Shown here: positions 23,128 through 39,275 of the stretch, one piece after another
Layout of the letters: every line of letters starts with the position of its first letter
Numbering within the stretch: the first letter of the stretch is position 1
DNA from: a virus
Length of the DNA: 39,275 nt
Reading direction: 5' to 3' (one strand)
Virus record (IMG/VR): IMGVR_UViG_3300025010_000136
Coordinates: 1 to 39,275 of that record
Translations under genes and position numbers: made by a program
Notes under the pieces: model-generated
Databases searched by the model: none
What the model was told of the DNA's origin: nothing
Seen by the model: the letters and a program-made list of their open reading frames with translations, nothing else

Positions 23128-23613
23128 TTACTTAAAACTACCATCAACCTTATATTTTATTGAACCAGTGGGCCACGTCTTTAACCATAAAATGGCGTAT
23201 GTTTGCCTGGCTGGTTCTAAGTCTTTTGGGTAAACAACATCCCAGCCCAATTGGGAGCCGTCAGTGTCTAACGATCTTACTTCCACGGAGCCAGAAAATA
23301 TTTTGTCACTGTTGTTTTTGACATACACAACTACTTTTTGTTGACCCTTAGAGTTAATCATGTCTTGAGCTTCGGTTTTGACTTCGATTTGTTGCTGCTG
23401 AGCTTCAATGCGCTGTTGTTCTGCCCGTTGTTGTTCCATTGCTTCTTGAGGATCAGGTGCAGTTATCCCTGCAGTAATAATTAAGATAATTCCAGATATT
23501 GCAAGTAATGCTGGGATTTTGCGTCCAGCAGTTTTTGGCAATTTACCAAAAATAAGCCCGATTACACCTAATAGCAGTAATAGAACTCCAAGCGCAAAAT
23601 AAATTCCATCCAT
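23128..23613 (-). CDS. Small membrane protein (accessory gene in the tail cassette)
   Basis: 161 aa. Two transmembrane helices (FALGVLLLLLGVIGLIFG and IPALLAISGIILIITAGI), a Gln/Glu-rich coiled coil (about residues 58-85) and a C-terminal beta domain (QQKVVVYVKNNSDKIFSGSV) of the FxLYD/extracellular beta-sandwich kind. Transcribed against the tail genes, between the chaperones and tape measure, so it is a lysogen-expressed accessory gene rather than a virion gene. GGGGGTGA precedes its start. Cell-envelope protection or superinfection exclusion is speculation. Confidence 0.65.
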   Translation of the reverse strand: MDGIYFALGVLLLLLGVIGLIFGKLPKTAGRKIPALLAISGIILIITAGITAPDPQEAMEQQRAEQQRIEAQQQQIEVKTEAQDMINSKGQQKVVVYVKNNSDKIFSGSVEVRSLDTDGSQLGWDVVYPKDLEPARQTYAILWLKTWPTGSIKYKVDGSFK

Positions 23614-23682
23614 AAATTATCACCCCCTTAGGTTATTATATAATACCAATATTTATTTAGAAAGGGGGATTGGTGAGCAATA

Positions 23683-26600: not shown

Positions 26601-27549
26601 GAAAACCAATGCTGATTTAGTTAAGGGTTGGACTGACAACCGTAACTTTATTTACGACATCTTGGGTCAGGTTGATACGCGGTTCCAGGTTACGGTAAAT
26701 TATGCTACAAACTGGGGTAGTAATCTAATCGGTAACCTTATTAGTGGTATCGCATCCAGGCGCACTGACCTGACAAATACGTTAGAATCAGTTGCCCAGG
26801 AGATCAGCAACTACCTTGGCTTTAGCTCACCGACCAAAAAAGGGCCAGGAAGTAACGCTGACCAATGGATGCCTAATTTAGTGGGCATGATGACCGGAGA
26901 TTTACAAGGCGGTGTCCCATTAATACGCGGGGCAGTTAGCCAATTAGCTGCACAGATGGCAAAACTATCCGGTATTGAGTCGGTGGTAACGTCACGAATA
27001 GAAGATCTAAAAACACCGGAACTACCAAAGCTACCGGATGCGCCACCGGCAGAGTATCAGGCAAAGGCTAACGTGGAGCGCACGGACAGCGTAACGCAAG
27101 AGGTAGAAACCAATACAGCGGCTATTGAGGCAACAACGCCTACTATTGATGTACCAACCATTATGCCTGACGTTGAGCTGCAAACAGCAGAGGTGGAAGT
27201 ATTAACAGGTAGCCTACAAGAAGATATTGCCACAATATTTAAGTCAGTGGCAGCGCTGTTTACTAGGGCTGTGAAAGATATCAGCTTTAGCTCAAATAAT
27301 AGTGGAGGACAGGCTTCTGGGCTAACTAAGCTGAAAGAGGATATTGAGTATCAAGCTTCTCGGTTTTCGGCGACTCCTAATGAACTGCTTGCAAAACTAA
27401 GGGCACCTGCAGTTAATGTAGATGCACCGGTTGCTGCATTGACAGGTAGTGCCGGTAATGTTTTCAATATCGATATCACCGGTAGTAATGCTGAGGAGAT
27501 TTGGGAGCAGTTGGAGCGAGAGCTACAACGCCATGGCGTGAGGTGGTAA
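23683..27549 (+). CDS. Phage tail tape measure protein (second, region B)
   Basis: 1288 aa. Begins with the typical tape-measure N-terminus (MNVGELLVRLGLDMADFRRG, then a TKFAAKTPFEIPEI segment), has three hydrophobic segments near residues 290-370 (AAILGVASSFIILKFAM; MYWVVIAIGALVAAAYALY), long coiled coils (about 520-1000) and a C-terminal small domain (NVFNIDITGSNAEEIWEQLE). No peptidase domain, unlike the tape measure protein at 1-5019, and no close similarity seen between the two. Gene length predicts a tail somewhat shorter than that of region A. Confidence 0.9.
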   Translation: MNVGELLVRLGLDMADFRRGMNHVRDEVSVTNKALNGLKTVIAGVVAGVGIASGWKWLVSGNAQMEQYRQTLNIVMKDTQKAGELLEWATKFAAKTPFEIPEIIESTVRLQAYGIEARNVLGDLGDMAAAMGKPLTQAMEAVADAQTGELERLKEFGITKDMLASKAQEMYNQEIVNSKGQITNMQMMNNALTAIIRDRYHGAMEAQSTTLNGMISNLKDWLGTAGRILGQNIFEKTKAQLKELLTTFNNLSDSGQLEVWGKRLGDVFGSAIDITSKLFNFINDHSTAIKAAILGVASSFIILKFAMITTAIVEGLTFAFVAAREALVMYRAGISLATIAQWAFNSALLANPMYWVVIAIGALVAAAYALYKAWVNNWGGIQDKTKAVASVIVSFFNRMIISIATGFNQLKRKVFSLLSGIMSAVAPVVGLIGKIAPGFEAGFDKAQSAVNSKIDDIDLKLQELGVSAQVAGEKLSNAMSSVKTSFMPKAAEASTAKPPDVDTGDLPKLEAEANAAAEAVSGLGNSMDGLGGSAGSAGGKASKAAEDTRAAWEKTADKLGVGLQILQAEYDIAAAKMGENATETDKLSLKSAHLSKQLELQKQIVASVAQGYDEAKASKEATAEETQKLELRLTQERKSQAELEKEIRSTNSALDEQGKKMKDLTKNVQETAGKYRQDLTKALEDYQKKVEDVNKKLIEDEQKATQEYQKAVDSRAKSLMDWVGLFDSIPEPKEVSGLDLLGNLDDQVSAFRDWQANLQTLAARGIDQGLISELEQMGPKASSEIAALNSLTDDELQQYVLLWQEKSSLATQQATSELTGLKNETESKISELRSNAAAQLTEYANDWENKNREIRENTVKELEKLVEEAQKLGAAFAAALTGAISTALPDLSGTLNISDTDQVGEAADQRQVVINEAKAQASQHVAIVQSEVSSLLQSWSDAGNQLSSKQNEIKAQSIATWQEVQQRLSALWQKTNADLVKGWTDNRNFIYDILGQVDTRFQVTVNYATNWGSNLIGNLISGIASRRTDLTNTLESVAQEISNYLGFSSPTKKGPGSNADQWMPNLVGMMTGDLQGGVPLIRGAVSQLAAQMAKLSGIESVVTSRIEDLKTPELPKLPDAPPAEYQAKANVERTDSVTQEVETNTAAIEATTPTIDVPTIMPDVELQTAEVEVLTGSLQEDIATIFKSVAALFTRAVKDISFSSNNSGGQASGLTKLKEDIEYQASRFSATPNELLAKLRAPAVNVDAPVAALTGSAGNVFNIDITGSNAEEIWEQLERELQRHGVRW

Positions 27550-27550
27550 C

Positions 27551-28963
27551 ATGCAAATTACAATAGCCGGTGTTGCCCGCACTGCCGATGTAAGGCTTGA
27601 CGGTTTCAGTATAGAGCAGGCACTTGGCAACGAGCAGGACACCTGTTCTTTCACACTAAAAAGCGGGGATAAGCCGGTTGAAGGGCAAGAAATAATAATC
27701 GAGGATAATGGAGTCAGATTGTTTGGCGGCATCATTACTAATCCAAAAGAGGATGAGAAAACACCTACAAAAGTTTTTTATCCTTGCGAATCGGTCGATT
27801 ATGGTTATCAGCTTGACCGGCGACTGGTAGTAGAGGTCTATGAAAATATGTCTGCAAGTGACATAGTGATCGACATATTAAATAAGTATTGCCCAGGCTT
27901 TATCGGGAACGGCATAGTCTCAGGTGCTCCGGTGGTGGAGTATATTAAATTCGACTACTTACGGCCAAGTGAATGCTTTAAGCAGCTTACTGGGTACGTA
28001 GGCTGGCAATGGAAACTTGACTATTTTAAAGATGTTAAATTTTTTGAGCAGTATAATGCATTCGCACCAGTGGAAATAACTCACAACAGCGCAATCAGGA
28101 AACTAAAACACGAACCGGATATACAGGGATTGAGAAATAAGGTCTATGTCCTGGGTGGTAAAATGCTTTCCGATGAACAGGACTTTGCCTATGTTGCAGA
28201 CGGTCAGCAGCGTCTTTGGGTGCTGGGGCATGAGCCACATAGCCCTTGGGTCTACATTGGGGACATAAATAATCCACCCATAAAGCCGGGCCTTGAGTAC
28301 GTGGATGATGAAGCAAGCTATTCCTGGATGTATAACCAGGGTGAAAAATATATTCGTTGCAGCGCACAAACAGCTACTCCGCCCAACGGTACGACCGTAA
28401 TTTTTAGATACAAGGTGCCAATGGACGTCATTACTATGGTTGAGGACCTAGCTAGCCAACAAGCCGTTGCCTTAATTCAAGACGGAGACGGAATATATGA
28501 ACATAAAATTGTTGATGATTCTTTAATTACCATTCAAGCGGCTGAAGCGACAGGACAGGCTGATCTGGCTCAACATGCTAACCCGACGATAAAGGGCAGC
28601 TTTGAAACTGAGGTAAATGGCTGGGTGCCTGGGCAACTTCTCACAATCAATCTACCAGGCCGTGGTATACAGGGTCAATATCTCATCCAAAAAGTAAACA
28701 TTACAGCGTTGAGCAGTAATAAACTCACCTATAAGGTTTCTTATGGTGGGAGGTTGAAAGGTATCCCGGATTTACTTCAAGCGCTGGTTAGTGGGCAACA
28801 AAACAAGAAAATAGTTGATGTGAATTATCAGAGTAAGTTTGTCACGGGAGAACTACCGGTTGGCATTAAGATCGAATTTGTAGTTACTTTAAGAACCGAT
28901 CCTTGGTACTGCGGTGATGCGGACGCTATTTGTGGAGAGATTGTATGCTTGGGGGTGGCTTAG
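27551..28963 (+). CDS. Tail hub / tail-tip protein
   Basis: 470 aa, starting 1 base after the tape measure stop. N-terminal part MQITIAGVARTADVRLDGFS with CSFTLKSGDKPVEGQEIIIE and VRLFGGII resembles hub proteins of the gp27/late control D/Tal superfamily, which form the ring under the tail tube. The middle (YLRPSECFKQLTGYVGWQWK) is the usual hub region with a Trp-rich core; the C-terminus is beta-rich. No Dit gene separates it from the tape measure gene, so this may combine both functions. Confidence 0.7.
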   Translation: MQITIAGVARTADVRLDGFSIEQALGNEQDTCSFTLKSGDKPVEGQEIIIEDNGVRLFGGIITNPKEDEKTPTKVFYPCESVDYGYQLDRRLVVEVYENMSASDIVIDILNKYCPGFIGNGIVSGAPVVEYIKFDYLRPSECFKQLTGYVGWQWKLDYFKDVKFFEQYNAFAPVEITHNSAIRKLKHEPDIQGLRNKVYVLGGKMLSDEQDFAYVADGQQRLWVLGHEPHSPWVYIGDINNPPIKPGLEYVDDEASYSWMYNQGEKYIRCSAQTATPPNGTTVIFRYKVPMDVITMVEDLASQQAVALIQDGDGIYEHKIVDDSLITIQAAEATGQADLAQHANPTIKGSFETEVNGWVPGQLLTINLPGRGIQGQYLIQKVNITALSSNKLTYKVSYGGRLKGIPDLLQALVSGQQNKKIVDVNYQSKFVTGELPVGIKIEFVVTLRTDPWYCGDADAICGEIVCLGVA

Positions 28964-29290
28964 GTGGCAATAACGACCGAGGGGCTTGAAAAAATCGCAG
29001 AGCTAATTGCTGAGTTTAATGCTCCGTTTATTGTTATCGGAAACGCAGGCGGCGAAGCATTCAGGAAACAGGTTGGTGCCGTCATTCCATCCGGCAGCGT
29101 TGTTAGGTTTAGGTCTACACTATCCCTTTCGGAGGGCAATGGGGATCATACTTACCTGGCTTTGTTTAGTGACGCCACTGCGGGAGCTGGAAGTGGAGTT
29201 TTAATTGGCAGCGTCGAGCAGTTGTTTAGTAAGGGACAAACCCAGGTCTTAAATATAGAATGTAAAATAACCGTACAGCAGGGGGTGTAG
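28964..29290 (+). CDS. Small tail-tip/structural protein
   Basis: 108 aa, GTG start directly abutting the previous stop (TAGGTGGCAATAAC). MAITTEGLEKIAELIAEFNA then a beta-rich part (FRSTLSLSEGNGDHTYLALF). Common companion of hub genes in Clostridia prophages by position; no known function. It ends at a TAG that lies in the same frame as the next gene. Confidence 0.6.
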   Translation: MAITTEGLEKIAELIAEFNAPFIVIGNAGGEAFRKQVGAVIPSGSVVRFRSTLSLSEGNGDHTYLALFSDATAGAGSGVLIGSVEQLFSKGQTQVLNIECKITVQQGV

Positions 29291-29293
29291 GCA

Positions 29294-30022
29294 ATAACTT
29301 TAAATGCTTTTAAGAATGGTGTAAGCCCTATTAATCAGTCAACTATGAACCCTTTGTTAAGCTTGCAACCTTTCACGATCATATACGAGGGAACACAAAG
29401 GGACGCTAAAACGGGGGCAGGAGTGTTGGAAAACCCCTTGGCCGACTATAATTATTGCTGTCGCTTTATTATAGCTGGAACAACTGAAATAGGTAGGGTT
29501 GAGCTACACATAGACAAAGACGGGGCGGGGGCAGATGTAATTCTACAAATTAGGGACAATACATTCAGCCCCAGTGGCGTAGAGGGTGATATTTTAAGGG
29601 AGGTTCTTATTCCTGCCGAATTCATACCTCTTACAGCTAATTATATTTCAATACCGATAAATATGTCCGATTTAACTGCCGGGTATTATTGGCTAGTTGT
29701 CAAAAAAGCCGGAGATGCTACAAACAAAAACGATCTAATAAGTGAAACCTCACAAGATCCCGACTATCCTTGCTTTCGTCGGACTGGTGATAGCGGAGCA
29801 TGGACAGCGATAAACGCTTTGCACTTCTACGTTTACAGCGGCGCGGTGGGGCTACCGGTACACGTCATCGAGGGCGTAAATGCGCTCACAACGATAGAGT
29901 ACAGCGCAGGCTTGCCGTCAAAAATTAGTCAGTATATCCCACCTTCTGACGGTCCTGCAGGTGGAATTCGTGACATACTGACGTTAACTTACAGTAGCGG
30001 GTTGCCTGTGGGAGGGGTTTAG
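29294..30022 (+). CDS. Putative tail fibre/baseplate protein with unclear start
   Basis: About 243 aa if started at ATA 29294 (ITLNAFKNGVSPINQSTMNP), with GCAGGGGG 9 bases upstream; the first ATG is at 29345 but has no ribosome-binding site and would cut into the conserved-looking N-terminus. It is in the same frame as the previous gene, separated by one TAG. Residues after about 35 are beta-rich (LQPFTIIYEGTQRDAKTGAG, CRFIIAGTTEIGRVELHIDK), like carbohydrate-binding or fibre domains. Options: ATA start, a lost GTG (compare the gene before it, GTGGCAATAAC), or read-through. Confidence 0.6.
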   Translation: MTLNAFKNGVSPINQSTMNPLLSLQPFTIIYEGTQRDAKTGAGVLENPLADYNYCCRFIIAGTTEIGRVELHIDKDGAGADVILQIRDNTFSPSGVEGDILREVLIPAEFIPLTANYISIPINMSDLTAGYYWLVVKKAGDATNKNDLISETSQDPDYPCFRRTGDSGAWTAINALHFYVYSGAVGLPVHVIEGVNALTTIEYSAGLPSKISQYIPPSDGPAGGIRDILTLTYSSGLPVGGV

Positions 30023-30023
30023 G

Positions 30024-30455
30024 ATGGCTGGTTTAGGTGGAATTATTGGGACTATTATGGGCTGGTTAGGTTATCAGGTCGGTCTTCGTACGGATGCTGC
30101 AGACGGATCGGGTAGTGTCCATGCAAAAATCGTGGATCTAAAAAATAAGATCGGGACTTCTGCCGATACAAGAGCTAGTAACACTGTGATGGGTGCATTG
30201 AGTACAGGGATAAAATCGTGGCAAAATGTAGTTTTTTCACCCAGTAGCACTTCTGGTAATATTGCAATTGCGAATGTAAATCCTGCTAAATGTATAGTGC
30301 TTTTTCAAGGTGGAGGAAGTCGATGTATAGAAGGAATCAATTATGCGTACGCCATAATGCCGTGGCTGACCGGGTTAACTGCAACAAATGTTAGTTTTGG
30401 GATGCCTAATGGACAATATGGATATCATTCTGTAACCGTAATTGAATTTTATTAG
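30024..30455 (+). CDS. Tail fibre-like protein
   Basis: 143 aa. MAGLGGIIGTIMGWLGYQVG and LRTDAADGSGSVHAKIVDLK then ASNTVMGALSTGIKSWQNV, a motif set common in short fibre or tail proteins of Bacillota prophages; the C-terminal half is a small beta domain (CIVLFQGGGSRCIEGINYAY). Starts 1 base after the previous stop. Probably a virion surface protein. Confidence 0.6.
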   Translation: MAGLGGIIGTIMGWLGYQVGLRTDAADGSGSVHAKIVDLKNKIGTSADTRASNTVMGALSTGIKSWQNVVFSPSSTSGNIAIANVNPAKCIVLFQGGGSRCIEGINYAYAIMPWLTGLTATNVSFGMPNGQYGYHSVTVIEFY

Positions 30456-30469
30456 GAGGTGTATTTAAA

Positions 30470-30655
30470 TTGCTTATTATTGTAGATGGCGATGGTAAAA
30501 TACAACAAATAAATGACATGAAAGGCGATTTAGATATCGAACAATTTAAGCAACGTATACAACAAGAAGGGCTTTATGTGGTTGATGTAGATATTGTACC
30601 GGATATGAGTTATATTTATAATTTTGAAACAGAGATTTTTGAGCCTGGCAATTAG
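30470..30655 (+). CDS. Small phage protein (61 aa)
   Basis: TTG start 5-8 bases after AGGAGGTG. MLIIVDGDGKIQQINDMKGD then a helix (EQFKQRIQQEGLYVVDVDIV) and an acidic end. Sits between fibre and holin genes where small XkdX-like or fibre-accessory proteins are usual; no clear family. Confidence 0.55.
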   Translation: MLIIVDGDGKIQQINDMKGDLDIEQFKQRIQQEGLYVVDVDIVPDMSYIYNFETEIFEPGN

Positions 30656-30732
30656 GTATATAAAAAGTATACATGTATACCTAAGTATACCTCGCTAAAA
30701 TCAAGAGTCGAAAGTATACCTCCGTTTGGAGG
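30652..30732. repeat. Cluster of TATACCT repeats and a CCTCC/GGAGG hairpin
   Basis: TTAGGTATA (30652-30660) is inverted against TATACCTAA (30676-30684); GTATACATGTATAC (30667-30680) is a perfect 14-bp palindrome; AAGTATACCTC occurs twice (30683-30693, 30712-30722). CCTCC and GGAGG (30719-30732) close a small hairpin. It occupies the whole gap between the tail and lysis genes, so it is a candidate operator for lysis control or a recombination site. Confidence 0.6.
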
Positions 30733-30764
30733 TTATTTTATTTGGGTTACCGGAGGTGGGAGGG

Positions 30765-30971
30765 GTGGAAGCTGAAGTTTTAAAGATGGCAGCAAGTCAG
30801 GGTTTTTTTGCAGTACTATTCGTAGTGCTGCTTTTTTATGTGCTTCGGGAAAATGCCAAGAGAGAGGAAAAATACCAGAGCACAATTAACATCTTAGCTG
30901 AAAAATTTGATGTAGTGGATGACATCAGAAAAGATGTGGTCGAAATCAAAGAAAATATTAAAAGTAAATAG
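30765..30971 (+). CDS. BhlA/UviB-type holin-like protein
   Basis: About 68 aa from GTG 30765, chosen because GGAGG at 30752-30756 is 8 bases upstream; an earlier TTG lies in the hairpin stem. One transmembrane helix (SQGFFAVLFVVLLFYVLREN) then a basic/acidic helix (YQSTINILAEKFDVVDDIRK), exactly the layout of BhlA/UviB holin-like proteins. First gene of the lysis cassette, followed by amidase and a second holin. Confidence 0.8.
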   Translation: MEAEVLKMAASQGFFAVLFVVLLFYVLRENAKREEKYQSTINILAEKFDVVDDIRKDVVEIKENIKSK

Positions 30972-30982
30972 GAGGTAGGCCT

Positions 30983-31642
30983 ATGCAAATCAAACAATCA
31001 CCAAGCCCAAACTTTAGTAGTAGAAATGGCAGAAAACCGATAGCAATTGTCAATCACATTACTGCCGGAAAATTTCCCGGCTGCCGTGACTGGCTATGTA
31101 ATCCGACAGCTAAGGCAAGCGCGCATTACATCGTTACCCGTGCCGGAGAAATCATTCAGTTAGTTGTCGATGAAAATGCAGCTTGGCATGCCGGGGCAGT
31201 AAACAAGCCTAGCTGGACCCTCTACGATGGAGTTAACCCCAACCGTTACACTATCGGCATAGAACACGAAGGTTATACCGGGGCCGGTGGGGATGGGGAT
31301 TTAACCGAAGCGCAGTACCAGGCAACGCTTTGGCTACATCGTCAACTGATAGCCAAGCACGATATACCGGTAGACAGGGATCATATTATCGGACATTATA
31401 GGATTGATTCAGTTAACCGTCCGAACTGCCCGGGGCCGAAGTTTCCATGGGAACGGTTGTTTAAGGATTTAGCCGGGGGAGGTGAGAAAGAATTGGAAAA
31501 AATCAAGGTTATCGTTGAGGGTAAGGAAATCGAAGGCGTCATAATCAATGATCGAGCATATGCACCTGTCAAGGATGTTGTTGATGCCATGAATGATACT
31601 GTTAAATGGGATGATGCAACCAGAACTGTAACGGTGAGCTAG
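30983..31642 (+). CDS. Endolysin: N-acetylmuramoyl-L-alanine amidase with C-terminal Cu-amine-oxidase-like domain
   Basis: 219 aa, ATG after AGGAGG. Amidase_2 (PGRP-like) domain over residues 1-160 with likely zinc ligands His25 (VNHITAGKFPG), His in IIGHYRID and the Cys/Pro region RPNCPGPKFPW. It cuts the MurNAc-L-Ala bond in peptidoglycan to lyse the host. Residues about 170-219 (IKVIVEGKEIEGVIINDRAY, APVKDVV, VKWDDATRTVTV) are a Cu_amine_oxidN1-type domain, frequent in cell-wall proteins of Desulfotomaculum/Sporomusa-type hosts. Confidence 0.9.
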   Translation: MQIKQSPSPNFSSRNGRKPIAIVNHITAGKFPGCRDWLCNPTAKASAHYIVTRAGEIIQLVVDENAAWHAGAVNKPSWTLYDGVNPNRYTIGIEHEGYTGAGGDGDLTEAQYQATLWLHRQLIAKHDIPVDRDHIIGHYRIDSVNRPNCPGPKFPWERLFKDLAGGGEKELEKIKVIVEGKEIEGVIINDRAYAPVKDVVDAMNDTVKWDDATRTVTVS

Positions 31643-31669
31643 ATAAATAATTTAAGGAGGTACAAAACC

Positions 31670-32107
31670 ATGCAAGAAATCTTATCTCAATCATTTAGCC
31701 AGCTAATATCAATGATCATATATTTAGCTGCACTCACGTTATTTTCTTACGTTGGCATGATGATTAAAAAGTTTCAGCCGGTAGTTGCTGCATGGCTGGA
31801 TGCAAACACAACAGCAGCACAAAAGAAAGTTATTAAGGAACTTGGCAGCGAAGCATTTACTTATGCTGAAACGGTTTTCCGTGAAAAGAACGGCGCCGAT
31901 AAGCTGCATGAGGCACTTTCGTATTTCAATAAGAACATGGACAAATACAACCTGCCTGGCATGACCTATGAAAATATACGGAATGCGGTTGAACAGGCAT
32001 GGCTGCAAGACAAGAGTATGAGGTCCTTTGATGTGCAGGTGGATGCCGGGGAATTGAAGTCGGAGGAAGTTGCACCGGCTGTAGAAGCAGAAGGTCAAAC
32101 ATCATAA
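31670..32107 (+). CDS. Phage holin, LLH family
   Basis: 145 aa, ATG after AAGGAGGT. One N-terminal transmembrane helix (QLISMIIYLAALTLFSYVGM) and a cytoplasmic helical part with GSEAFTYAETVFREKNGADK and YENIRNAVEQAWLQ typical of LLH holins. Together with the BhlA-like protein it probably controls the timing of amidase release. Last gene of the region B late cassette, before a terminator. Confidence 0.85.
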   Translation: MQEILSQSFSQLISMIIYLAALTLFSYVGMMIKKFQPVVAAWLDANTTAAQKKVIKELGSEAFTYAETVFREKNGADKLHEALSYFNKNMDKYNLPGMTYENIRNAVEQAWLQDKSMRSFDVQVDAGELKSEEVAPAVEAEGQTS

Positions 32108-32135
32108 ATTTGCCCCTGCTGGACAAAATAGAATA

Positions 32136-32204
32136 CCGCGTATTTCTTTCTTGGCCCTGCCTTTGTGGTGGGGCTTTTTATTTTGCCTTGAAAGCCGCGT
32201 ATTT
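32136..32204. repeat. Direct repeat CCGCGTATTT flanking a terminator
   Basis: CCGCGTATTT at 32136-32145 and 32195-32204, 59 bases apart, on both sides of the late-operon terminator. May be chance or a duplication scar at the edge of the lysis cassette. Confidence 0.45.
32153..32184 (+). terminator. Terminator of the region B late operon
   Basis: GGCCC...GGGGC-type stem (GCCCTGCC with GGTGGGGC) followed by TTTTTATTTT. It closes the tail-lysis transcription unit. Confidence 0.65.
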
Positions 32205-32241
32205 GCTGGAAAAAGTTTTTTAATTATTTATCAAAATAATG

Positions 32242-32290
32242 TTTACATCCCGAATAAGGGATGATATAATAAGTTATACCCGAAAACGGG
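32242..32290 (+). promoter_or_regulatory. Promoter with two CCCG-type operators
   Basis: TTTACA (32242-32247) and TATAAT (32265-32270) with a 17-base spacer. ATCCCGAATAAGGGAT (32247-32262) lies in the spacer and CCCGAAAACGGG (32279-32290) covers the start of transcription. Both look like sites for an XRE-type repressor, such as the one at 36249. The gene served starts at 32321. Confidence 0.75.
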
Positions 32291-32320
32291 ACGGAAAAAA
32301 TAAGCCGGGAGGGCGAAACA

Positions 32321-32737
32321 ATGAAAAACATCAACAGAAGCCAAGTGATGAAAAGAGCGCACGAAATAGCAAAAACTTTAGTTGGCGACTGGTACGCAAG
32401 ATTAGCTTTAGCCCTCCGCCAGGCTTGGAGGGAGGCGAAGAATATCGTGACTAAGGTAATCGAAACAATCACTGATGCCGAGAATTTCTTAAACAAACTT
32501 AGCGAGTTGCAAATCGAAGACTTTAGGTTTTTAAACGAAACAGGTTTTACAACAGAATACTACACCAGAAGCGATAAGCCAGGAGTTTTCAAAAAGAAGA
32601 ACTGGGGCGCGGGTGATGATGACTGGAAAACATTTAAAAATGTAACCGCTGACATGATACTAGAAGACAAAGAATTAATAAACAAAGAACTCGAAGAAGG
32701 TAAAAGATACTGGACTAACAGGGGTATTCTGACATAA
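32321..32737 (+). CDS. Conserved phage/plasmid protein of unknown function
   Basis: 138 aa, ATG after GGGAGGG. N-terminal RSQVMKRAHEIAKTLVGDWY then ARLALALRQAWREAK is a motif seen at the start of many small phage and plasmid proteins linked to DNA metabolism; residues 55-138 are charged and contain DFRFLNETGFTTEYYTR. It has its own repressed promoter. Often part of early or transfer regions of Bacillota elements. Function unknown. Confidence 0.55.
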   Translation: MKNINRSQVMKRAHEIAKTLVGDWYARLALALRQAWREAKNIVTKVIETITDAENFLNKLSELQIEDFRFLNETGFTTEYYTRSDKPGVFKKKNWGAGDDDWKTFKNVTADMILEDKELINKELEEGKRYWTNRGILT

Positions 32738-32797
32738 ATATAAATCGGTTTGGGGTTATCCGTAAAAACCCCAGTAAAAAAATGAGGTGATATTAAA

Positions 32798-33085
32798 ATG
32801 TTAAAATTCAAAAACATCAACTCCGGCCTAATCTTAACCGAGAAAGAATACAACGAAATGTTGCAACGAGAAGCAGAAAATGCTTGGAATGAAAAATCAG
32901 ACTGGGACGGAAATGAATATATCCCAACTGGTACAGTCTATGAGGCGAAGGAAGAGTTCATAAAGTGGCACACAGAAGGCCCTGACCATGATTTTGTTGT
33001 ACTAGAGGAATGCCAAACTTGCGGTGAATTTATCCCTGTAGGTAAAGATTGCAATTGCTACGGAGACGATTCCCTGGGAAAGTAG
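32798..33085 (+). CDS. Small protein with C-terminal zinc-binding Cys cluster
   Basis: 95 aa, ATG after GAGGTG. Acidic and helical, with CQTCGEFIPVGKDCNCYGDD at the C-terminus (four to five Cys, likely a zinc knuckle). Its end overlaps the following HTH gene. Function unknown; early-gene type. Confidence 0.55.
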   Translation: MLKFKNINSGLILTEKEYNEMLQREAENAWNEKSDWDGNEYIPTGTVYEAKEEFIKWHTEGPDHDFVVLEECQTCGEFIPVGKDCNCYGDDSLGK

Positions 33086-33255
33086 TTACCGCCTCGGAGG
33101 CTTGCGGCCTCTGGGGGTTGGATGTAAGTACAGTCAAAAGGGCCTGCCAGCAAGGAGGTAGATTTTTGCCGCACGAAGCCAGGAAATCAGGTGGCACTTG
33201 GTTAGTGACACTGGCCGGGATGCGGCGGGTGTATGGTTCGAGGGCTGAGAAATGA
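33049..33255 (+). CDS. Helix-turn-helix DNA-binding protein (excisionase/MerR-like)
   Basis: At most 68 aa; TTG at 33049 or 33055 are possible starts, neither with a good ribosome-binding site, so it may be coupled to the overlapping gene. VTASEACGLWGLDVSTVKRA is a helix-turn-helix, followed by EARKSGGTWLVTLAGMRRVY. This is the layout of small HTH_17-type/excisionase proteins. It overlaps the next gene by ATGA. Could direct excision or regulate nearby genes. Confidence 0.6.
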   Translation: MQLLRRRFPGKVVTASEACGLWGLDVSTVKRACQQGGRFLPHEARKSGGTWLVTLAGMRRVYGSRAEK

Positions 33256-34049
33256 AATCAGTAGCATCTACAGAACAGGCCATGCTTAACTACGCCAAAG
33301 AGTTGGGCTACTGGCCTTCCCGGAGTCAGTGGGACAAGTACGCCAGGGAAAACGGCCATATGTCTTTTGTGGGTGTATACTATCATACCCGCAAGGGCTG
33401 GGAAGCCTACAGAGAGCAGTTCGGTTTTCCTCCCCGCGAAAAAGTATTCACAAAGGATGATTGTATTTCAGCACTCCATCAAGCAGCGCAGGAGTTAGGC
33501 CAGTTTTTCACCAGAAGAGAATATGACGAATGGCAAAAAAAGAGACCGGATCTGCCTTCCATTGGGCAATTTGCTGGTCGTTGCGGAACCTGGAACAAGG
33601 CAAAGGAGGAAGCTGAACTCTTCACAAATGCTGCGTGGGGAAAGGAATTCGATGACAATGAAATCATCCAAGCACTGAAAGATTGTTCTGCTGCACTGGG
33701 GCCGCTTTTCAGCGAAGCGGAATACATGGCTTGGAACGATGGAACCAGGCCGCACATAGAAACTATCAGGAAGCGTATGGGGAGTCTTCCGGAAGCCAAG
33801 AAGGCAATGGAGTTGGAAACATACCATCAAGGCAAACAGACAAAGTATACCGATGGGCGCTGGCAGGAACCTTTTCTACACTTCATATCCGATTCACTGA
33901 AGTCTGATAGGTATTTTGAATGGGCTAAAGAGAATGGAGGTCCTTCAAATAAAGCTTTGTTTGACAATGCCGGAGGCTATGAAAAGGCTTTGCTTGAGAT
34001 ACTGCCGTTGTACATAGAAAAGGTGACGGCGGGGAGGAAAAAACGCTGA
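33252..34049 (+). CDS. HNH_repeat (homing-endonuclease-associated repeat) protein without nuclease domain
   Basis: 265 aa. Three or four repeats of about 50-60 residues with the pattern (A/L)..AA.ELG......EYDEW.......P....I..R.GTWN.AK, for example REYDEWQKKRPDLPSIGQFA then GRCGTWNKAKEEA, and SEAEYMAWNDGTRPHIETI then KRMGSLPEAKKA. Such repeats bind DNA next to HNH homing nucleases, but no HNH motif is seen here. ATG overlaps the previous stop (ATGA), so the two are coupled. It lies immediately upstream of the structured RNA. A DNA- or RNA-binding role is inferred. Confidence 0.7.
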   Translation: MKSVASTEQAMLNYAKELGYWPSRSQWDKYARENGHMSFVGVYYHTRKGWEAYREQFGFPPREKVFTKDDCISALHQAAQELGQFFTRREYDEWQKKRPDLPSIGQFAGRCGTWNKAKEEAELFTNAAWGKEFDDNEIIQALKDCSAALGPLFSEAEYMAWNDGTRPHIETIRKRMGSLPEAKKAMELETYHQGKQTKYTDGRWQEPFLHFISDSLKSDRYFEWAKENGGPSNKALFDNAGGYEKALLEILPLYIEKVTAGRKKR

Positions 34050-34142
34050 CCGGGATGCATAATCTTGCTTTATTTGGGTAAACTTTCGAGCAAGCTCACC
34101 TTAAACTCCTCGTCTCCTCCTGCGCCCACCAGGGCGTTATTT

Positions 34143-34160
34143 TTATTCCACGTGGAATAA
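34143..34160. promoter_or_regulatory. Perfect 18-bp palindrome around CACGTG (parS-like)
   Basis: TTATTCCACGTGGAATAA is fully self-complementary. The core TTCCACGTGGAA resembles the ParB site parS (TGTTTCACGTGAAACA) and the Noc site, differing in the arms. It lies about 30 bases upstream of the -35 box of the noncoding RNA promoter. Candidate centromere-like or operator site. Confidence 0.55.
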
Positions 34161-34187
34161 TCCTGGCCGAATTAAATATGATTTAAG

Positions 34188-34216
34188 TTGAAATCTAAAC
34201 AGGGCTGTGCTATAAT
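34188..34216 (+). promoter_or_regulatory. Sigma-A promoter of the structured noncoding RNA
   Basis: TTGAAA (34188-34193), 17-base spacer, TATAAT (34211-34216). Expected start near 34223. No ORF of useful size follows for 700 bases on this strand. Confidence 0.85.
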
Positions 34217-34222
34217 TGGTAA

Positions 34223-34613
34223 TTATTAATCTAGGTGGAAAATCCCCCGGGAAACCGATGCAGGGCATATCCAGAGGGAGATTTATTTTCAGGCGGGAAA
34301 CTCCCGGCTTTAAAAGCCGAGCAGAGTATGCCCGAAGTGAGCGGTGAATAACCGCAATTTTAACCTCCGTTAATTCGGAGAATTTTAGTAGAACATTTAA
34401 AATTTTTAGGGCAATTATGTCCAATTAAATTTAAGTTTTTATAAGGAATAGGATATCGGAAAGCCCTTTGAGGGGATAGCCGACTAAAGATTTTATGTGT
34501 AGCGGAAAGCTCTTTGAGGAGATAGCCGCTTATTGAAGGGACTTATGTCCAATTTAAAGAAGAGTCTTGTATAAGACTTATTAAAAAATCAAAGGATAAC
34601 TCTGTCCTTTTTT
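34223..34613 (+). ncRNA. Large structured noncoding RNA (about 390 nt), family not recognised
   Basis: Bounded by a near-consensus promoter and a terminator (AAAGGA 34591-34596 with TCCTTT 34605-34610, then T tract). Many stems are visible: GGGCATA (34263-34269) with TATGCCC (34327-34333) enclosing CGGGA/TCCCG (34294-34306) and GCTT/AAGC; GCGGT/ACCGC (34341-34355); CTCCG/CGGAG (34365-34380); two related hairpins (34456-34483, 34501-34530) with a shared internal loop and compensatory base changes; GGAC/GTCC (34539-34550); AGTCTT/AAGACT (34563-34578). TTATGTCCAATT occurs twice (34415, 34543). No coding frame. It resembles the ornate large RNAs of phages and elements (such as GOLLD or ROOL) in style, but I cannot match it to one. 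Confidence 0.75.
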
Positions 34614-34647
34614 CAAAACGATAGCGCCGCCAGGCGCATTTAAAGAC

Positions 34648-34675
34648 AACCAGCAAACCTACTGCTGGTTTTTGT
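34648..34675 (+). terminator. Second terminator downstream of the noncoding RNA
   Basis: AACCAGCA (34648-34655) and TGCTGGTT (34663-34670), 8-bp perfect stem with a 7-base loop, then TTTG. Preceded by a further small hairpin GCGCC/GGCGC (34624-34637). Confidence 0.75.
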
Positions 34676-34680
34676 GCTTT

Positions 34681-34863
34681 CTACAATCCACACTTATTTT
34701 TCCCACAAAAAACTAGATGAAGTTTTAGCCGGGTTGATCTGCCGGCGAGTCAAAGAAATTGGATCATTGCGCTCTATTAATTTTTGTTGGCCGGGCACTG
34801 GCTTAAGTGTCACCGGGGAACCGCTGACCCGTTAATTCAGCTTTATATATATGTTCTAAATTA
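34681..34863. other. Intergenic stretch without recognised gene
   Basis: No ORF or clear RNA signal was seen between the second terminator and the palindromes upstream of the recombinase. It may belong to an attachment-site region. Confidence 0.4.
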
Positions 34864-34927
34864 AAGTGCGACAAATTGTCGTACTTAACGTAACGACTTT
34901 TATAGTCGTATCTGTTTAAACACAGAT
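34864..34927. repeat. Three successive palindromes upstream of the second recombinase
   Basis: AAGTGCGACAA/TTGTCGTACTT (34864-34886, one G-T), ACGACT/AGTCGT (34893-34909) and ATCTGT/ACAGAT (34910-34927). The first two share CGAC arms. The third contains TGTTTAAACA, which recurs in an 18-bp palindrome at 36493-36510. Candidate recombinase core/att sites or operators. Confidence 0.6.
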
Positions 34928-34992
34928 CTTTGACAGCAAAAAATTAGTGAGGTAAACGCAAGAGATATTTTTTACCGTCTCTTTGTTTCACT

Positions 34993-35919
34993 TTGCTCAT
35001 TTTGGGAGGTGTTAGTCTGTCTCATACGTCATTACGAAGTCAGATCCGGCAATCACTCCGCAACTTACTCAAACTCAATGAAAAGAGATTTGATTATAAA
35101 AAATCCGGCCAGGCACAGTATTGGATTTTTTACTATCAGACCTTTGAGAAATACAGCCGGGATTGCTGGTCAGTCATAAGACAGATCCGCGACCGGCACG
35201 GCATTAATATGCTAATAAAAATAAAACCGCATATGGTCAGGAAGGAATTTGAGCGACGGATTGCTGCTGGTCAATCGGCTTGGACACTTAAGGCCTACAG
35301 AGCTGCATTAATTAAATTGCAGTACGGTATAAATCACAGGTATGGCTACAACGTCAAACTGGTGCCCAAGGATATGATGTTACCTGCTAGGCGGGTGAAA
35401 CTTCGCCACGATAGGTTTGCCTACACGCCGGAGCAGACGCAGACGATTATTGCAAATAGCTATACATTAAAATTGCCAGCTGCCGCTGTGCTTGATCTGA
35501 TTGCTTGCACCGGCTTGCGATTACATGAAGCGTTGAAGCTCAGAGCTCTTGACATTCAAAGTGATATTTTGGTCGTGCATAAGGGCAAGGGCGGGAAACG
35601 CAGGGAAATAGCTATGACAAATGAAGCAAAGTCTCTGGCAGATAAACTATTGACCAGTAAGGCAGATATGGACTTAATTTTCCCTGGCCTCAGTGAAAGC
35701 CAGGTCCGGCAATGCCTGCAAAGAGCTTGTAGACAAGCTGGGATCTCAGTACACAAAGTCCACAATTTGCGCCATCAATATGCCGTCCGACAATACGGGT
35801 TGAAGCGCGATGCGGGAGTTACTGCCCGTTTTGAAGTGTCTCAGGACTTGGGCCACAACCGGCGATCGGTCACTTATGCCTATATTCCACCGCGCATCCG
35901 CCCGGGGTGGCGTGATTAA
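34993..35919 (+). CDS. Tyrosine recombinase/integrase (second)
   Basis: Up to 308 aa from TTG 34993. GGGAGG at 35004-35009 instead points to CTG 35017 (7-base spacing), so the start is uncertain. N-terminal SAM-like domain (about 40-140) and catalytic domain with Arg176 (CTGLRLHEALKL), Lys in GKGGKRREIAM, His257/Arg260 (HNLRHQYAV), His288 (LGHNRRSVTYAY) and Tyr297 nine residues later. Its catalytic motifs differ from those of the 19497 recombinase, so they are not recent duplicates. Integrase or resolvase of the region C element; palindromes upstream are possible substrates. Confidence 0.88.
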   Translation: MLILGGVSLSHTSLRSQIRQSLRNLLKLNEKRFDYKKSGQAQYWIFYYQTFEKYSRDCWSVIRQIRDRHGINMLIKIKPHMVRKEFERRIAAGQSAWTLKAYRAALIKLQYGINHRYGYNVKLVPKDMMLPARRVKLRHDRFAYTPEQTQTIIANSYTLKLPAAAVLDLIACTGLRLHEALKLRALDIQSDILVVHKGKGGKRREIAMTNEAKSLADKLLTSKADMDLIFPGLSESQVRQCLQRACRQAGISVHKVHNLRHQYAVRQYGLKRDAGVTARFEVSQDLGHNRRSVTYAYIPPRIRPGWRD

Positions 35920-35946
35920 TATAATAAATTTGGGGAGGTACATCTT

Positions 35947-36195
35947 ATGGATAAAACCATATTGGCAATAAATACAGCCAGGAACGATGGTATAGAGGTA
36001 TATATACATTGCTTTCAGGGTGCTTTTACAGCTATGTATTTGCTTGTTAACGAACAACCATGTATTATGCTCAAGCGACATCCAGGTAGTTATCAAGAAG
36101 TAGTTCAAGCTATTTCGCATTTCCTTAAAATACACTGGGAAATGATTGTTGTTGATCCCATTATTATTAAAGGTATTCCTGTATGGCTTTACTAA
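35947..36195 (+). CDS. Small protein of unknown function (82 aa)
   Basis: ATG 6 bases after GGGGAGGT, 28 bases downstream of the recombinase. MDKTILAINTARNDGIEVYI, YLLVNEQPCIMLKRHPGSY and QAISHFLKIHWEMIVVDPII suggest an alpha/beta fold. No family recognised. Confidence 0.5.
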   Translation: MDKTILAINTARNDGIEVYIHCFQGAFTAMYLLVNEQPCIMLKRHPGSYQEVVQAISHFLKIHWEMIVVDPIIIKGIPVWLY

Positions 36196-36248
36196 GCAAA
36201 TTAGGAGGAATATATTAACAAATGTCGAAGTGTTAAACGGGTGATGCT

Positions 36249-36464
36249 ATGGGAATAGAAAACAAACTCAAAGAAATCAGGGAAGAACTTCGACTCTCTC
36301 AGGAAGAAGTGGCAAGAATATTTAGAGAGAAGTATTGCCAAACAAAAGTTACACGGCAACTGGTTAGCACCTGGGAGCGTGGGGCAGCTCCAAAATTAGA
36401 ATATGCCCTAATTTTATCCGACCTGTACAACAAAACAGTGAATGAACTTTTTAGACTGGTATAA
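36249..36464 (+). CDS. XRE-family helix-turn-helix regulator
   Basis: 71 aa. NKLKEIREELRLSQEEVARI then VTRQLVSTWERGAAPKLEYA is a standard HTH_3 domain; nothing else is present. Candidate repressor of this element: the CCCG-type operators at 32247-32290 and the TGTTTAAACA palindromes at 34910 and 36493 are potential sites, but which it binds cannot be told from sequence. Confidence 0.8.
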   Translation: MGIENKLKEIREELRLSQEEVARIFREKYCQTKVTRQLVSTWERGAAPKLEYALILSDLYNKTVNELFRLV

Positions 36465-36482
36465 ATAGCCAGTCTTTTTTTG
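36453..36482 (+). terminator. Terminator of the XRE gene
   Basis: AGACTGG (36453-36459) and CCAGTCT (36469-36475) with a 9-base loop holding the stop codon, followed by a run of seven T. Confidence 0.85.
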
Positions 36483-36492
36483 TGTGCTTTTA

Positions 36493-36510
36493 CGAATGTT
36501 TAAACATTCG
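36493..36510. promoter_or_regulatory. Perfect 18-bp palindrome with TGTTTAAACA core
   Basis: CGAATGTTTAAACATTCG is fully self-complementary and lies between the XRE gene and the RHH-like gene. It shares TGTTTAAACA with the palindrome upstream of the second recombinase (34910-34927), suggesting one regulator for both. Confidence 0.65.
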
Positions 36511-36554
36511 CATGAATAAACATGATTTAACAAAGTTGAACAGGAGGTTAAACA

Positions 36555-36851
36555 ATGAAAAAGCCGCCATTTGTAGCTGCCAGGCTACGTCAACGCAGGG
36601 ATGCCGACATCATTGAGGCTTTGGAGGGAATAGAACCGGGTGACGTTTCCTGCTTGGTTAGAGAAGGTCTTCGGAGAGTGTTAAACATTGATAAACAGCC
36701 AGAACCAAAGCTACAGCATGAGGTTTTGAGTGTTAAGCGACAGGATTCAGTGCCTATGCCGGAAACAGATCAACCTCAAAAAATTGTTAAACAGTCGGTG
36801 GAAAATAAAAAACCGCCGCAAAAGCCGGCGGTCTGGAACTTTCCTAAGTAG
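36555..36851 (+). CDS. Small DNA-binding protein, probable RHH (plasmid/ICE-type)
   Basis: 98 aa, ATG after AGGAGGT. KPPFVAARLRQRRDADIIEA then GIEPGDVSCLVREGLRRVLN matches the RHH-like N-terminal segment of small proteins from conjugative or plasmid elements; the C-terminal 45 residues are basic, Pro-rich and disordered. Likely accessory to partition or transfer. A CCGCCG/CGGCGG stem near its end may be an attenuator. Confidence 0.6.
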   Translation: MKKPPFVAARLRQRRDADIIEALEGIEPGDVSCLVREGLRRVLNIDKQPEPKLQHEVLSVKRQDSVPMPETDQPQKIVKQSVENKKPPQKPAVWNFPK

Positions 36852-36920
36852 GCAATAGCTTTCCCAAATGCTATCGCCTTCACGATTAGCATATGCTGGC
36901 GGACGGTAGTTTATGCCTGT
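36852..36920. other. Short intergenic region with a stem-loop
   Basis: GGCAATAGC and GCTATCGCC form an imperfect stem just after the RHH-like gene, a possible terminator. Nothing else seen. Confidence 0.45.
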
Positions 36921-37004
36921 CTAGCGGGTACCTAAATAAAAAAGTGCTTTGCCAATTTGAACCAGTGTAGTTCCGATAACTGCCTGCCACATAAATAAAG
37001 GCAT
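36921..37004 (-). CDS. Putative 27-residue hydrophobic peptide
   Basis: Minus-strand ORF reading MPLFMWQAVIGTTLVQIGKA then LFYLGTR, with GGAGGTG 8 bases before the ATG. The strong ribosome-binding site is unlikely for a random ORF. It has a single hydrophobic helix with basic end, like small membrane peptides or type I toxins. It lies opposite to the membrane-protein genes that follow. No promoter was identified. Confidence 0.4.
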   Translation of the reverse strand: MPLFMWQAVIGTTLVQIGKALFYLGTR

Positions 37005-37072
37005 TAGTAACACCTCCGACAGTATCGTTAACAAATAACACGCATTTTATACACATAAGAAGGTGGTTTTGT

Positions 37073-37183
37073 ATGAAATTTTTATCTGCCATAGGATTGC
37101 TGTTCGTTGCTATTGGTATTTATGTTTTATTTCTAGCAGCAAAAGGAGCATGGGAAAACATTAACAGGGAGGGGAAAGAGTGA
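37073..37183 (+). CDS. Small membrane protein (36 aa)
   Basis: MKFLSAIGLLFVAIGIYVLF then LAAKGAWENINREGKE: one transmembrane helix and a charged tail. Start after AGAAGGTGG. It overlaps the next gene by GTGA, so it is probably the first gene of the membrane-protein/ATPase operon. Confidence 0.65.
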   Translation: MKFLSAIGLLFVAIGIYVLFLAAKGAWENINREGKE

Positions 37184-37494
37184 AGGTTATAATGCTGTAT
37201 GTTGGGAATAAAAAAGAACTGGTTATTAAGACAGCCCAAAAAGGACATAAATATTTAGCCACTGGCAAGGTACTGGCGGTAACACCAGCAGCCAATGACG
37301 CTGGTTTTATAAAAGTTATGAGTGCTATCCTTGGTTTGGCAGATTATCTTTGCTGGGGAGTTATAGTATTCGCCGGTGCATCCTGGATGTTGGGCAACCG
37401 CACTAAAGCAATTGAACACATTATTGGCGGTAGCAGCGGATATCTCATAATTCGCCATGCTAAAGACATTAGAGATTTTTTAAAGGAGTTATAG
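37180..37494 (+). CDS. Small membrane protein, transfer-region type
   Basis: 104 aa, GTG start overlapping the previous stop. N-terminal soluble part (KVIMLYVGNKKELVIKTAQK) and hydrophobic segments near residues 48-70 (SAILGLADYLCWGVIVFAGA) and 80-90. Unknown family. Its operon includes a VirD4/TraG-like ATPase, so it is a candidate channel or coupling component. Confidence 0.6.
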   Translation: MKVIMLYVGNKKELVIKTAQKGHKYLATGKVLAVTPAANDAGFIKVMSAILGLADYLCWGVIVFAGASWMLGNRTKAIEHIIGGSSGYLIIRHAKDIRDFLKEL

Positions 37495-37497
37495 GCT

Positions 37498-37725
37498 ATG
37501 GATTACACAAACCCAATTAGTGAATGGGTGGCCGGCAAGATGGGGGAATGGGTAGCAGCAAAAGTAGATGCTACTTTATATGCATTAAATAATGGGGCTC
37601 CGGATGTAATAACTTATGGAGTTGTGTTTTGTGCCCTGGCCATGATGGTTACTGGGAGCCCTTATAAATGGTTTGGCCGGTCAATGATGCTTCTATGGGT
37701 TGGCATCGTTTGGATAGTTTTATAG
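37498..37725 (+). CDS. Small membrane protein (75 aa)
   Basis: ATG after AAAGGAG, 3 bases after the previous stop. N-terminal amphipathic part (ISEWVAGKMGEWVAAKVDAT) and two transmembrane helices (VITYGVVFCALAMMVTGS; SMMLLWVGIVWIVL). Probable partner of the ATPase gene that follows. No family named. Confidence 0.6.
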   Translation: MDYTNPISEWVAGKMGEWVAAKVDATLYALNNGAPDVITYGVVFCALAMMVTGSPYKWFGRSMMLLWVGIVWIVL

Positions 37726-37740
37726 GCGGCGGGTGACGTT

Positions 37741-39275
37741 ATGAAGTATTTTAAAAGGGTAGAAAATAAATACCGGGTATTTAAAATAACTCCACATCAT
37801 TCAGTATTGAACCAAACTAACCGTAAATTCCTGGCTACTTTACACAATGTTTTTAATATGTATAATTCGCCATGGTCCAGGTTATGGCGGGAAGGCAAAA
37901 CAATATACTACCGGAATAAGGATATCTTTTGGTGGTTAGTAACAATCCGGGGAGGCAGCCAAGAGGAATCCGCACAGGTCGAGTTCTATGTCGGGATTAC
38001 CGAGACCTATGCCGATGTATTCTTAGTTAAATTCAATAACCATGAGCAGTGGAAGAAATGCACCATTGAAGAGGCGGAAGTCCCCGAACTGCCAAATGGT
38101 GATATATACCGGCTTAAATATGCCCGGGCAGATATGTTTTCTCTTAATTATGATTACTCGCGTCAAACAGTACCAATTCGAGAGCTGGTTAATATATCAC
38201 AGGAAGTTGGTCCAGGAGACTTTGCCGGGCTGTTGGTTGGAGCAGAGACAGTTAATCGTAAAAGGTGGAGGGCTTTATCAGATTATGCCTGGGGTGTATG
38301 GGAAAAGGGTGGTGTACCGCAGCGAAACAATATTGACTTATTGAGAACCTGGCGGCACTCATGGAGATGCTTGAGCCGTATATTAGGCGAGGTTAAAAGC
38401 ATTGTTGATGATGTTATGGTCGGTATTGAAAAGTCCTTTTTTAATGGAAAGGATCAATTAACTGTAAAAAAAGAATTAGAGTTGCCGGATCCGGAGAGGC
38501 AGGAACTATTGGTTAACGGGGACTTATCGTCCTACACCAAGAAAAAAAGAAATCTACCTGTATTTCGTGCTGACATGTTTATCCTAGTTAATTCCGATAC
38601 AGCAGAAAAGCGGGGGATGCTTGTCAGGTCAGTGGCATCGGCATTTAATGAGCTTAGTGGAGACAACAGCCTGCATCCGGTGAAGGTTAATATAAAGTAT
38701 AGAAACTGGTTAGATCTCCCTAGGGATCGGGACGCTTGCTTAATGTCAACCGAAGAATTAGGGAAAGTTATGCAGCTGCCAACAGGACAGGTACAGGATG
38801 AATACGCGGAGGCATTAACAGTTAACAGGCGGGTTGAGATTGAAGTGCCGGCCGCTTTCAGAGATGAAAACGGTATTTATGTAGGCACCACCACTAATAA
38901 AGGACAGAGTTATCCTGTACACCTGCCAGTTAAAGACATAGATATTCTTATGACTGCCCGGGCATTCATCGGATCCCCACGGGTAGGCAAAGACCAGGCC
39001 GCCATTAATTTGGTGGTGGAGGCAAAGCGTAAACACGGTATTGGAGCCGTTATTCCGGATGTTATAGATGAAAGGAACGGTCACCGGGGAATGGCTGATG
39101 CTATCCGGGATCACTTGGATCCTGATGATGTTATTGATTTGAACCTGGGAGACTACGATTGGCCGGTTTATATTGGCCTTGAGGGGATAACGAAAGGCAT
39201 TAAAAATGAACGAGTGGCGGCAAACAGGATTGCACAGGAGTTAACTAACTTCCTTATGGGTGATGACATCGAAAA
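37741..39275 (+). CDS. VirD4/TraG-like (HerA/FtsK-type) ATPase, 3' end outside the window
   Basis: At least 511 aa in one open frame to the right edge; ATG 37741. The first 390 residues are soluble and unfamiliar (LATLHNVFNMYNSPWSRLWR, FYVGITETYADVFLVKF). A Walker A motif GSPRVGKD lies at residues 411-418 (Lys417) in LMTARAFIGSPRVGKDQAAI, followed by EAKRKHGIGAVIPDVIDERN and DLNLGDYDWPVYIGLEG, as in coupling ATPases of conjugative elements. Asp in place of the usual Ser/Thr after the Lys is notable. Membrane anchoring is absent from the protein itself and may be supplied by the small membrane proteins encoded upstream. Likely pumps DNA or protein through an element-encoded channel. Confidence 0.75.
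   Translation, partial: MKYFKRVENKYRVFKITPHHSVLNQTNRKFLATLHNVFNMYNSPWSRLWREGKTIYYRNKDIFWWLVTIRGGSQEESAQVEFYVGITETYADVFLVKFNNHEQWKKCTIEEAEVPELPNGDIYRLKYARADMFSLNYDYSRQTVPIRELVNISQEVGPGDFAGLLVGAETVNRKRWRALSDYAWGVWEKGGVPQRNNIDLLRTWRHSWRCLSRILGEVKSIVDDVMVGIEKSFFNGKDQLTVKKELELPDPERQELLVNGDLSSYTKKKRNLPVFRADMFILVNSDTAEKRGMLVRSVASAFNELSGDNSLHPVKVNIKYRNWLDLPRDRDACLMSTEELGKVMQLPTGQVQDEYAEALTVNRRVEIEVPAAFRDENGIYVGTTTNKGQSYPVHLPVKDIDILMTARAFIGSPRVGKDQAAINLVVEAKRKHGIGAVIPDVIDERNGHRGMADAIRDHLDPDDVIDLNLGDYDWPVYIGLEGITKGIKNERVAANRIAQELTNFLMGDDIE

Follow-up and report, generated by a model that had tools for sequence, protein, structure and literature searches.

Antisense RNAs that regulate phage genes, such as lambda OOP acting on cII, are an established kind of phage regulator (PMC12197685). 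The locus evaluated here occupies positions 34223-34613 of a 39,275-base virus record in IMG/VR, which was analysed over its whole length and is referred to as the window. The locus resembles the OOP unit in its small stand-alone phage transcript signals (promoter and terminator) and, like OOP, is complementary to a phage gene. Whereas OOP is encoded opposite the gene on which it acts, the complement of the present RNA is 4.3 kb away, covers 18 nt only and lies within a terminator hairpin. Moreover, the present RNA would be much longer and more folded than OOP. CsrB is about 370 nt in length, and the locus is similar to CsrB and RsmY in size, in its repeated hairpins and in its excess of GGA motifs; it differs from them in that GGA is found mostly in stems and that only two repeated hairpins are present. 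In the HK022 put antitermination RNA, hairpins are located upstream of terminators in a phage transcript, which is also the case here, but the present RNA is much longer and the terminators follow it immediately. The promoter, tandem hairpin repeats and terminator are likewise found in the toxI RNA of type III toxin-antitoxin systems, from which the present RNA differs in its repeat period of 46 nt and its two copies. A type III antitoxin RNA was rejected because no ToxN-type toxin gene was found downstream, where a tyrosine integrase comes next.

The original prediction described the locus as being in the style of GOLLD and ROOL, with which it shares being phage-encoded, noncoding, folded and of uncertain function. 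Many GOLLD RNAs are longer than 800 nt (PMC12286853), whereas the present RNA measures 391 nt to the first terminator and ~450 nt to the second, which is about half or less. GOLLD is often near tRNA islands, whereas no tRNA was found in the window. ROOL has a highly complex fold with multiple pseudoknots and forms a homo-octamer; the predicted secondary structure of the present RNA consists mainly of local hairpins. The GOLLD and ROOL covariance models gave no match to the RNA, either at the gathering threshold or at E-values up to 10. With this short length, no tRNA nearby, no homologues and a fold of mostly local hairpins in place of an elaborate multi-junction one, the likeness to GOLLD and ROOL is not supported. 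Other known classes were also dropped, namely a group I/II intron (no Rfam match), a TnpB guide RNA (a TnpB-like frame is present only at 6-7 kb) and tmRNA or tRNA.

Transcription signals and predicted fold

The stretch 34223-34613 is likely an independently transcribed non-coding RNA. Its predicted length is about 390 nt, or up to about 450 nt if transcription reaches the second terminator. The elements of the unit and its possible target are given below.

34122-34137, + strand: terminator of the upstream HNH-repeat gene, 6-bp stem with 5 G-C pairs, then TATTTTTATT; isolates the RNA unit
34143-34160, no strand assigned: perfect 18-bp palindrome TTATTCCACGTGGAATAA, operator-like, between the upstream terminator and the promoter
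34188-34216, + strand: promoter TTGAAA-17-TATAAT
34223-34613, + strand: proposed non-coding RNA, fold z -3.62, no coding frame
34591-34613, + strand: first terminator, hairpin AAAGGA-TAACTCTG-TCCTTT with an 8-nt loop, then a T-run; contains 18 nt complementary to 38899-38916
34648-34676, + strand: second, stronger terminator AACCAGC...GCTGGTTTTTG, 8-bp stem (hairpin 34648-34670), then a T-run
38899-38916, + strand: possible target in the ATPase-like frame, codons KGQSYP, upstream of the Walker-A-like GSPRVGKD

The promoter agreed with the consensus at 11 of the 12 positions and had an extended -10 element (TGC before the -10). Seven sites with at least 11/12 positions were found on both strands of the 39 kb, this promoter among them, and an extended -10 was present in two. 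The gene preceding the unit encodes an HNH-repeat protein (PF18780). Three perfect 18-bp palindromes were found in the 39 kb. One of them is the palindrome at 34143-34160, whose core TTCCACGTGGAA we take to resemble parS-type sites; a second, CGAATGTTTAAACATTCG at 36493-36510, likewise sits in a control region. The upstream terminator, the palindrome, the promoter and the two terminator hairpins behind the RNA have the arrangement of a separate transcription unit. The original prediction of a structured RNA with its own near-consensus promoter and a terminator at 34591-34613 was confirmed as far as these signals are concerned, which does not extend to transcription itself.

The minimum free energy of the 391-nt stretch was -112.1 kcal/mol, compared with -93.05 kcal/mol (sd 5.26) for dinucleotide shuffles, which corresponded to z = -3.62; none of 100 shuffles was as good. 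A contig-wide fold scan was carried out with 200-nt windows and a step of 100 nt, in which 34501-34700 ranked 4th and 34301-34500 ranked 6th of 391 windows. The second-best fold z of the scan (-4.4) was found for 34801-35000. Values of -4 to -5 were also obtained at 19101-19300, an ordinary repressor/operator-like region, where the score came from an ordinary terminator, operator palindromes of the TATATAAC type and a small minus-strand ORF. Hence, the folding energy is supportive but is alone no proof of a functional RNA, given that an ordinary control region reached a comparable or higher z.

The predicted absence of a coding frame was borne out. The longest + strand ORF in 34223-34613 had 38 codons and a GTG start without a Shine-Dalgarno sequence, no reading frame in the stretch was convincing, and a protein gene at this place was dropped for want of a plausible start or frame. 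By contrast, the segment had been called GC-rich, which was incorrect: 61 C and 89 G of 391 nt amount to 38%, whereas the surrounding kilobases have 40-49% GC. From the earlier observation as a whole, the promoter, terminator, fold, stems and lack of a frame were retained and the GC-richness was discarded. The hairpins of the predicted fold are as follows.

34263-34333, + strand: domain A, 8-bp stem 34263-34270/34326-34333, pair probability 0.67-0.91
34276-34305, + strand: domain A inner hairpin GGGAG/CUCCC, pair probability about 0.55
34306-34318, + strand: domain A inner hairpin GGCUU/AAGCC, pair probability 0.57-0.84
34341-34355, + strand: hairpin GCGGU-GAAUA-ACCGC, pair probability 0.99-1.0
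34365-34380, + strand: hairpin CUCCG-UUAAUU-CGGAG, pair probability 0.98-1.0
34409-34422, + strand: hairpin X1, GGGC-AAUUAU-GUCC, first copy of the 25-nt repeat D2, pair probability 0.55-0.62
34456-34483, + strand: hairpin Y1 (29-nt repeat D1, copy 1 at 34454-34482), 4-bp stem, AAAG/AUAG internal loop and CCCU/GGGG stem
34501-34530, + strand: hairpin Y2 (29-nt repeat D1, copy 2 at 34500-34528), 90% identity to Y1, pair probability 0.8-1.0
34539-34550, + strand: hairpin X2, GGAC-UUAU-GUCC, second copy of D2, probability 0.99
34563-34578, + strand: hairpin AGTCTTGTATAAGACT, seven pairs predicted when 34560-34680 is folded

The enclosing pairing of domain A, which had been given as 7 bp, was recovered in a slightly longer form, and at least six local stems were predicted beyond it, several with a probability near 1, in line with the number stated earlier. 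The pair probabilities were mostly 0.8-1 for the 34263-34333 stem, the GCGGU and CUCCG hairpins, Y2 and X2. They were near 0.5 for Y1, X1 and a long A-U stem, for which alternative pairings exist. Overall, simple local hairpins make up most of the predicted secondary structure.

Twin hairpins and the search for relatives

The 29-nt hairpin is present in two copies, Y1 and Y2, which are 46 nt apart and 90% identical. In the fold, each copy has two stems separated by the AAAG/AUAG internal loop, which is the same in both. All four differences within the folded hairpin form two compensatory pair changes from Y1 to Y2, with T-A replaced by G-C in the outer stem and C-G replaced by T-A in the inner stem. 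When quadruple changes were simulated at random, two compensatory pairs arose in 2.6 of 10,000 trials (2.6e-4). X1 and X2 differ by a one-sided consistent change of G-U to A-U, which kept the pairing on the + strand only. The compensatory changes between Y1 and Y2 are the strongest evidence for a selected structure; this evidence is internal to the RNA, as the changes are seen between two internal hairpin copies only, with no homologue to compare. The doubled Y hairpin with its identical internal loop may most simply be read as a doubled protein-binding site.

Relatives of the RNA were searched for in several collections. Rfam scans covered the window, the RNA region and also the related prophage; RAGATH-18, elsewhere in the window, was the only match. 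For the RNA, nothing was found at the gathering threshold and nothing credible at E-values up to 10. According to blastn, chance-length matches only were present among INPHARED phages and PLSDB plasmids, and chance matches only among 113 genomes of the Desulfoscipio order; a 399-genome sample of the host-like phylum gave chance matches only by both blastn and pattern, with no positive control genome in its blastn. Phages, plasmids and host-like phylum genomes thus contained no homologue detectable by blastn. DNA patterns of the twin hairpin, the twin hairpin with X2, and the domain A hairpin were scanned in the 2.9 million contigs of IMG/VR and found nothing, or coding and chance matches. The twin-hairpin pattern in the GTDB contigs likewise gave nothing, or chance matches in coding sequence. 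The 399-genome blastn is weak by itself, and the whole-collection pattern scans count more. One pattern match was rejected as it lay inside a large-terminase-like gene, and two blastn matches that looked promising were rejected inside a heterodisulfide-reductase-like and a response-regulator gene, respectively. A single-sequence covariance model of domain A gave three weak matches in the 113 genomes (L055, L056 and L057); L055 and L056 had no related phage context, and L055 lay opposite a reading frame.

The RNA is therefore an orphan, with no relatives in the collections searched and hence no cross-species covariation. Phages of uncultured anaerobic Firmicutes have been poorly surveyed for RNA genes. 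If transcribed, the locus would be a new RNA gene beyond the reach of comparative pipelines, which need homologues and would miss it.

Complementarity to the ATPase-like gene and competing readings

The core of the hairpin of the first terminator, RNA positions 34593-34610, is the exact 18-nt complement of 38899-38916. The other 391-nt segments in the right half had longest antisense matches elsewhere in the contig of 11-15 nt. The target frame begins at 37741 and is cut off by the contig end. Its protein had no match to Pfam families, and the putative ATPase assignment is based on the Walker-A-like motif GSPRVGKD, read by eye. A homologue of the protein in a Desulfoscipio prophage (838 aa, 26% identity) differs at the KGQSYP motif. 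The same small hairpin is possible on both strands, and a loop-loop contact between UAACUCUG and CAGAGUUA is conceivable. In a general duplex-energy scan, the ATPase site was not among the best targets. The complementarity suggests either trans-antisense control or an inverted recombination site.

The best explanation of the locus as a whole, with a probability of roughly 40%, is a stand-alone phage-encoded regulatory RNA gene that is antisense to the ATPase mRNA. The strong promoter would start the transcript near 34223, and the end would be at 34613 or 34676. A DNA-binding protein could control the promoter via the adjacent 18-bp palindrome. The 5' part of the RNA would be a hairpin domain, and in its 3' domain the duplicated Y1/Y2 would form a doubled protein-binding site. 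The terminator hairpin would expose the loop UAACUCUG, and the loop and stem may pair over 18 nt with the mRNA for the ATPase that the phage itself encodes downstream. This pairing would lower ATPase production and keep the ATPase module quiet. The antisense mechanism, taken by itself, is tentative and somewhat doubtful. For pairing, the terminator stem would need to open, as it is itself the complementary stretch, and the target is deep within the coding region rather than at the start codon. Furthermore, the motif is not conserved in the 26% homologue, the duplex scan did not place the site among the best and the RNA has no homologue. The 18-nt complementarity nevertheless provides one specific, testable target. 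The candidate is well formed, comes from one contig and is not a demonstrated new class. It may be described as an orphan member of the broad kind of phage-encoded regulatory RNAs that would work most like the phage antisense RNAs and is homologous to none. It is improbable that the RNA is the first member of an undescribed phage regulatory RNA class, in which a doubled protein-binding hairpin is combined with terminator-hairpin silencing of a DNA-transfer or packaging-type ATPase.

The two terminator-like hairpins directly behind the RNA and ahead of the integrase could also point to an RNA that serves the integrase operon as a leader, attenuator or antiterminator. Its fold, much like HK022 put RNA or a riboswitch, would let the polymerase pass both terminators and switch on the integrase and regulator genes. 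The promoter at 34188 is the sole promoter-like site found on the + strand from 33000 to the integrase, and the Y1 loop region CCUUUGA, complementary over 7 nt (a length within chance) to UCAAAGG at the first terminator's base, could disrupt that terminator. However, the integrase frame begins 317 nt beyond the last terminator, with further palindromes in between, and no known antiterminator or riboswitch family was matched in Rfam, so that this reading is unlikely. The twin Y hairpins and the GGA motifs (13 compared with 6.4 expected, p about 0.004) might instead titrate an RNA-binding protein of the host or phage in the manner of CsrB and CsrA. The duplicated hairpins share an identical internal loop, and CsrA is encoded by a related host genome (PF02599, 86.6 bits). 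Such titration is distinctly unlikely, as most of the GGA motifs are buried in stems and are not in exposed hairpin loops, unlike those of CsrB, and the hairpin has two copies only and no homologue.

The locus might also act as DNA and provide the neighbouring tyrosine recombinase with recombination sites or operators; 34591-34610 and its inverted copy at 38897-38916 would then be core sites on either side of an invertible segment with the integrase. This 18-bp exact inverted pair encloses the integrase (34993-35919), the hairpin has 6-bp arms and an 8-bp spacer, and several further palindromes are located at 34869-34927. An arm-spacer-arm geometry of this type fits the cores of tyrosine recombinases. 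However, the arms are short, and the second site is within the ATPase frame, so that inversion would disrupt that gene. This reading also leaves the promoter, twin hairpins and G-U asymmetry unexplained, which makes a DNA element quite improbable. A large structural RNA in the manner of GOLLD and ROOL, possibly self-assembling, would be consistent with a phage-encoded, noncoding and extensively folded unit with its own promoter and terminator, but is very improbable for an RNA of 390 nt that has no relatives here, whereas GOLLD and ROOL occur in many phages. The status of an orphan in every collection searched, the related prophage without the RNA and the comparable z-scores of ordinary control regions would all be expected of decayed or chance sequence, i.e., an intergenic region with terminators and operators and no functional transcript. 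This reading is improbable in view of the twin hairpins with compensatory changes, the near-perfect promoter after a terminator and a fold that beat 100 of 100 shuffles.

Genomic context

In the proposed layout, lysis genes lie on one side of the RNA and integrase and regulator genes on the other, in a phage or prophage whose hosts would be Desulfotomaculum-type anaerobes. A prophage (L007) in a Desulfoscipio geothermicus MAG is clearly related to the right half of the window, with 79% identity for the tail protein and 70-76% identity at the DNA level across a large part of the tail genes. At the corresponding place, L007 had no match to the RNA and no integrase of the window's kind. No relatives of the integrase were found in IMG/VR, and two relatives in the sampled phylum reached 33-34% identity only, both without the RNA. 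The HNH-repeat flanking protein, used to find relatives, gave none. Relatives of the tail protein were found in four short viral contigs, which end before the RNA region, and in one genome, that of L007. The RNA may have entered together with the integrase.

The listed start of the integrase is TTG, but in 34993-35020 the best ribosome-binding site, GGGAGG, closely precedes an in-frame CTG, and translation probably starts later than listed. Upstream of the integrase, three inverted repeats, CGACAAATTGTCG, ACGACTTTTATAGTCGT and ATCTGTTTAAACACAGAT, at 34869-34927 could be attachment-site arms or operators. A control region at 19150-19500 contains a repressor-like minus-strand ORF of ~50-60 codons together with the terminator and operator palindromes mentioned above; it is divergent from an integrase at 19497-20339 and is conserved in L006. 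The contig is AT-rich in 1-20000 (20-38% GC) and has 40-50% GC in 20000-39275. A very long tape-measure-like gene (10-5019) is in the AT-rich part, whereas a second tape-measure and tail module is in the other, and the two-part contig may represent composite prophages or a chimeric assembly. A TnpB-like frame at 6107-7235 is split into two overlapping ORFs and is followed by the RAGATH-18 match (59.9 bits). A papain-type peptidase with a fibronectin III domain is encoded among phage genes at 15168-16742.
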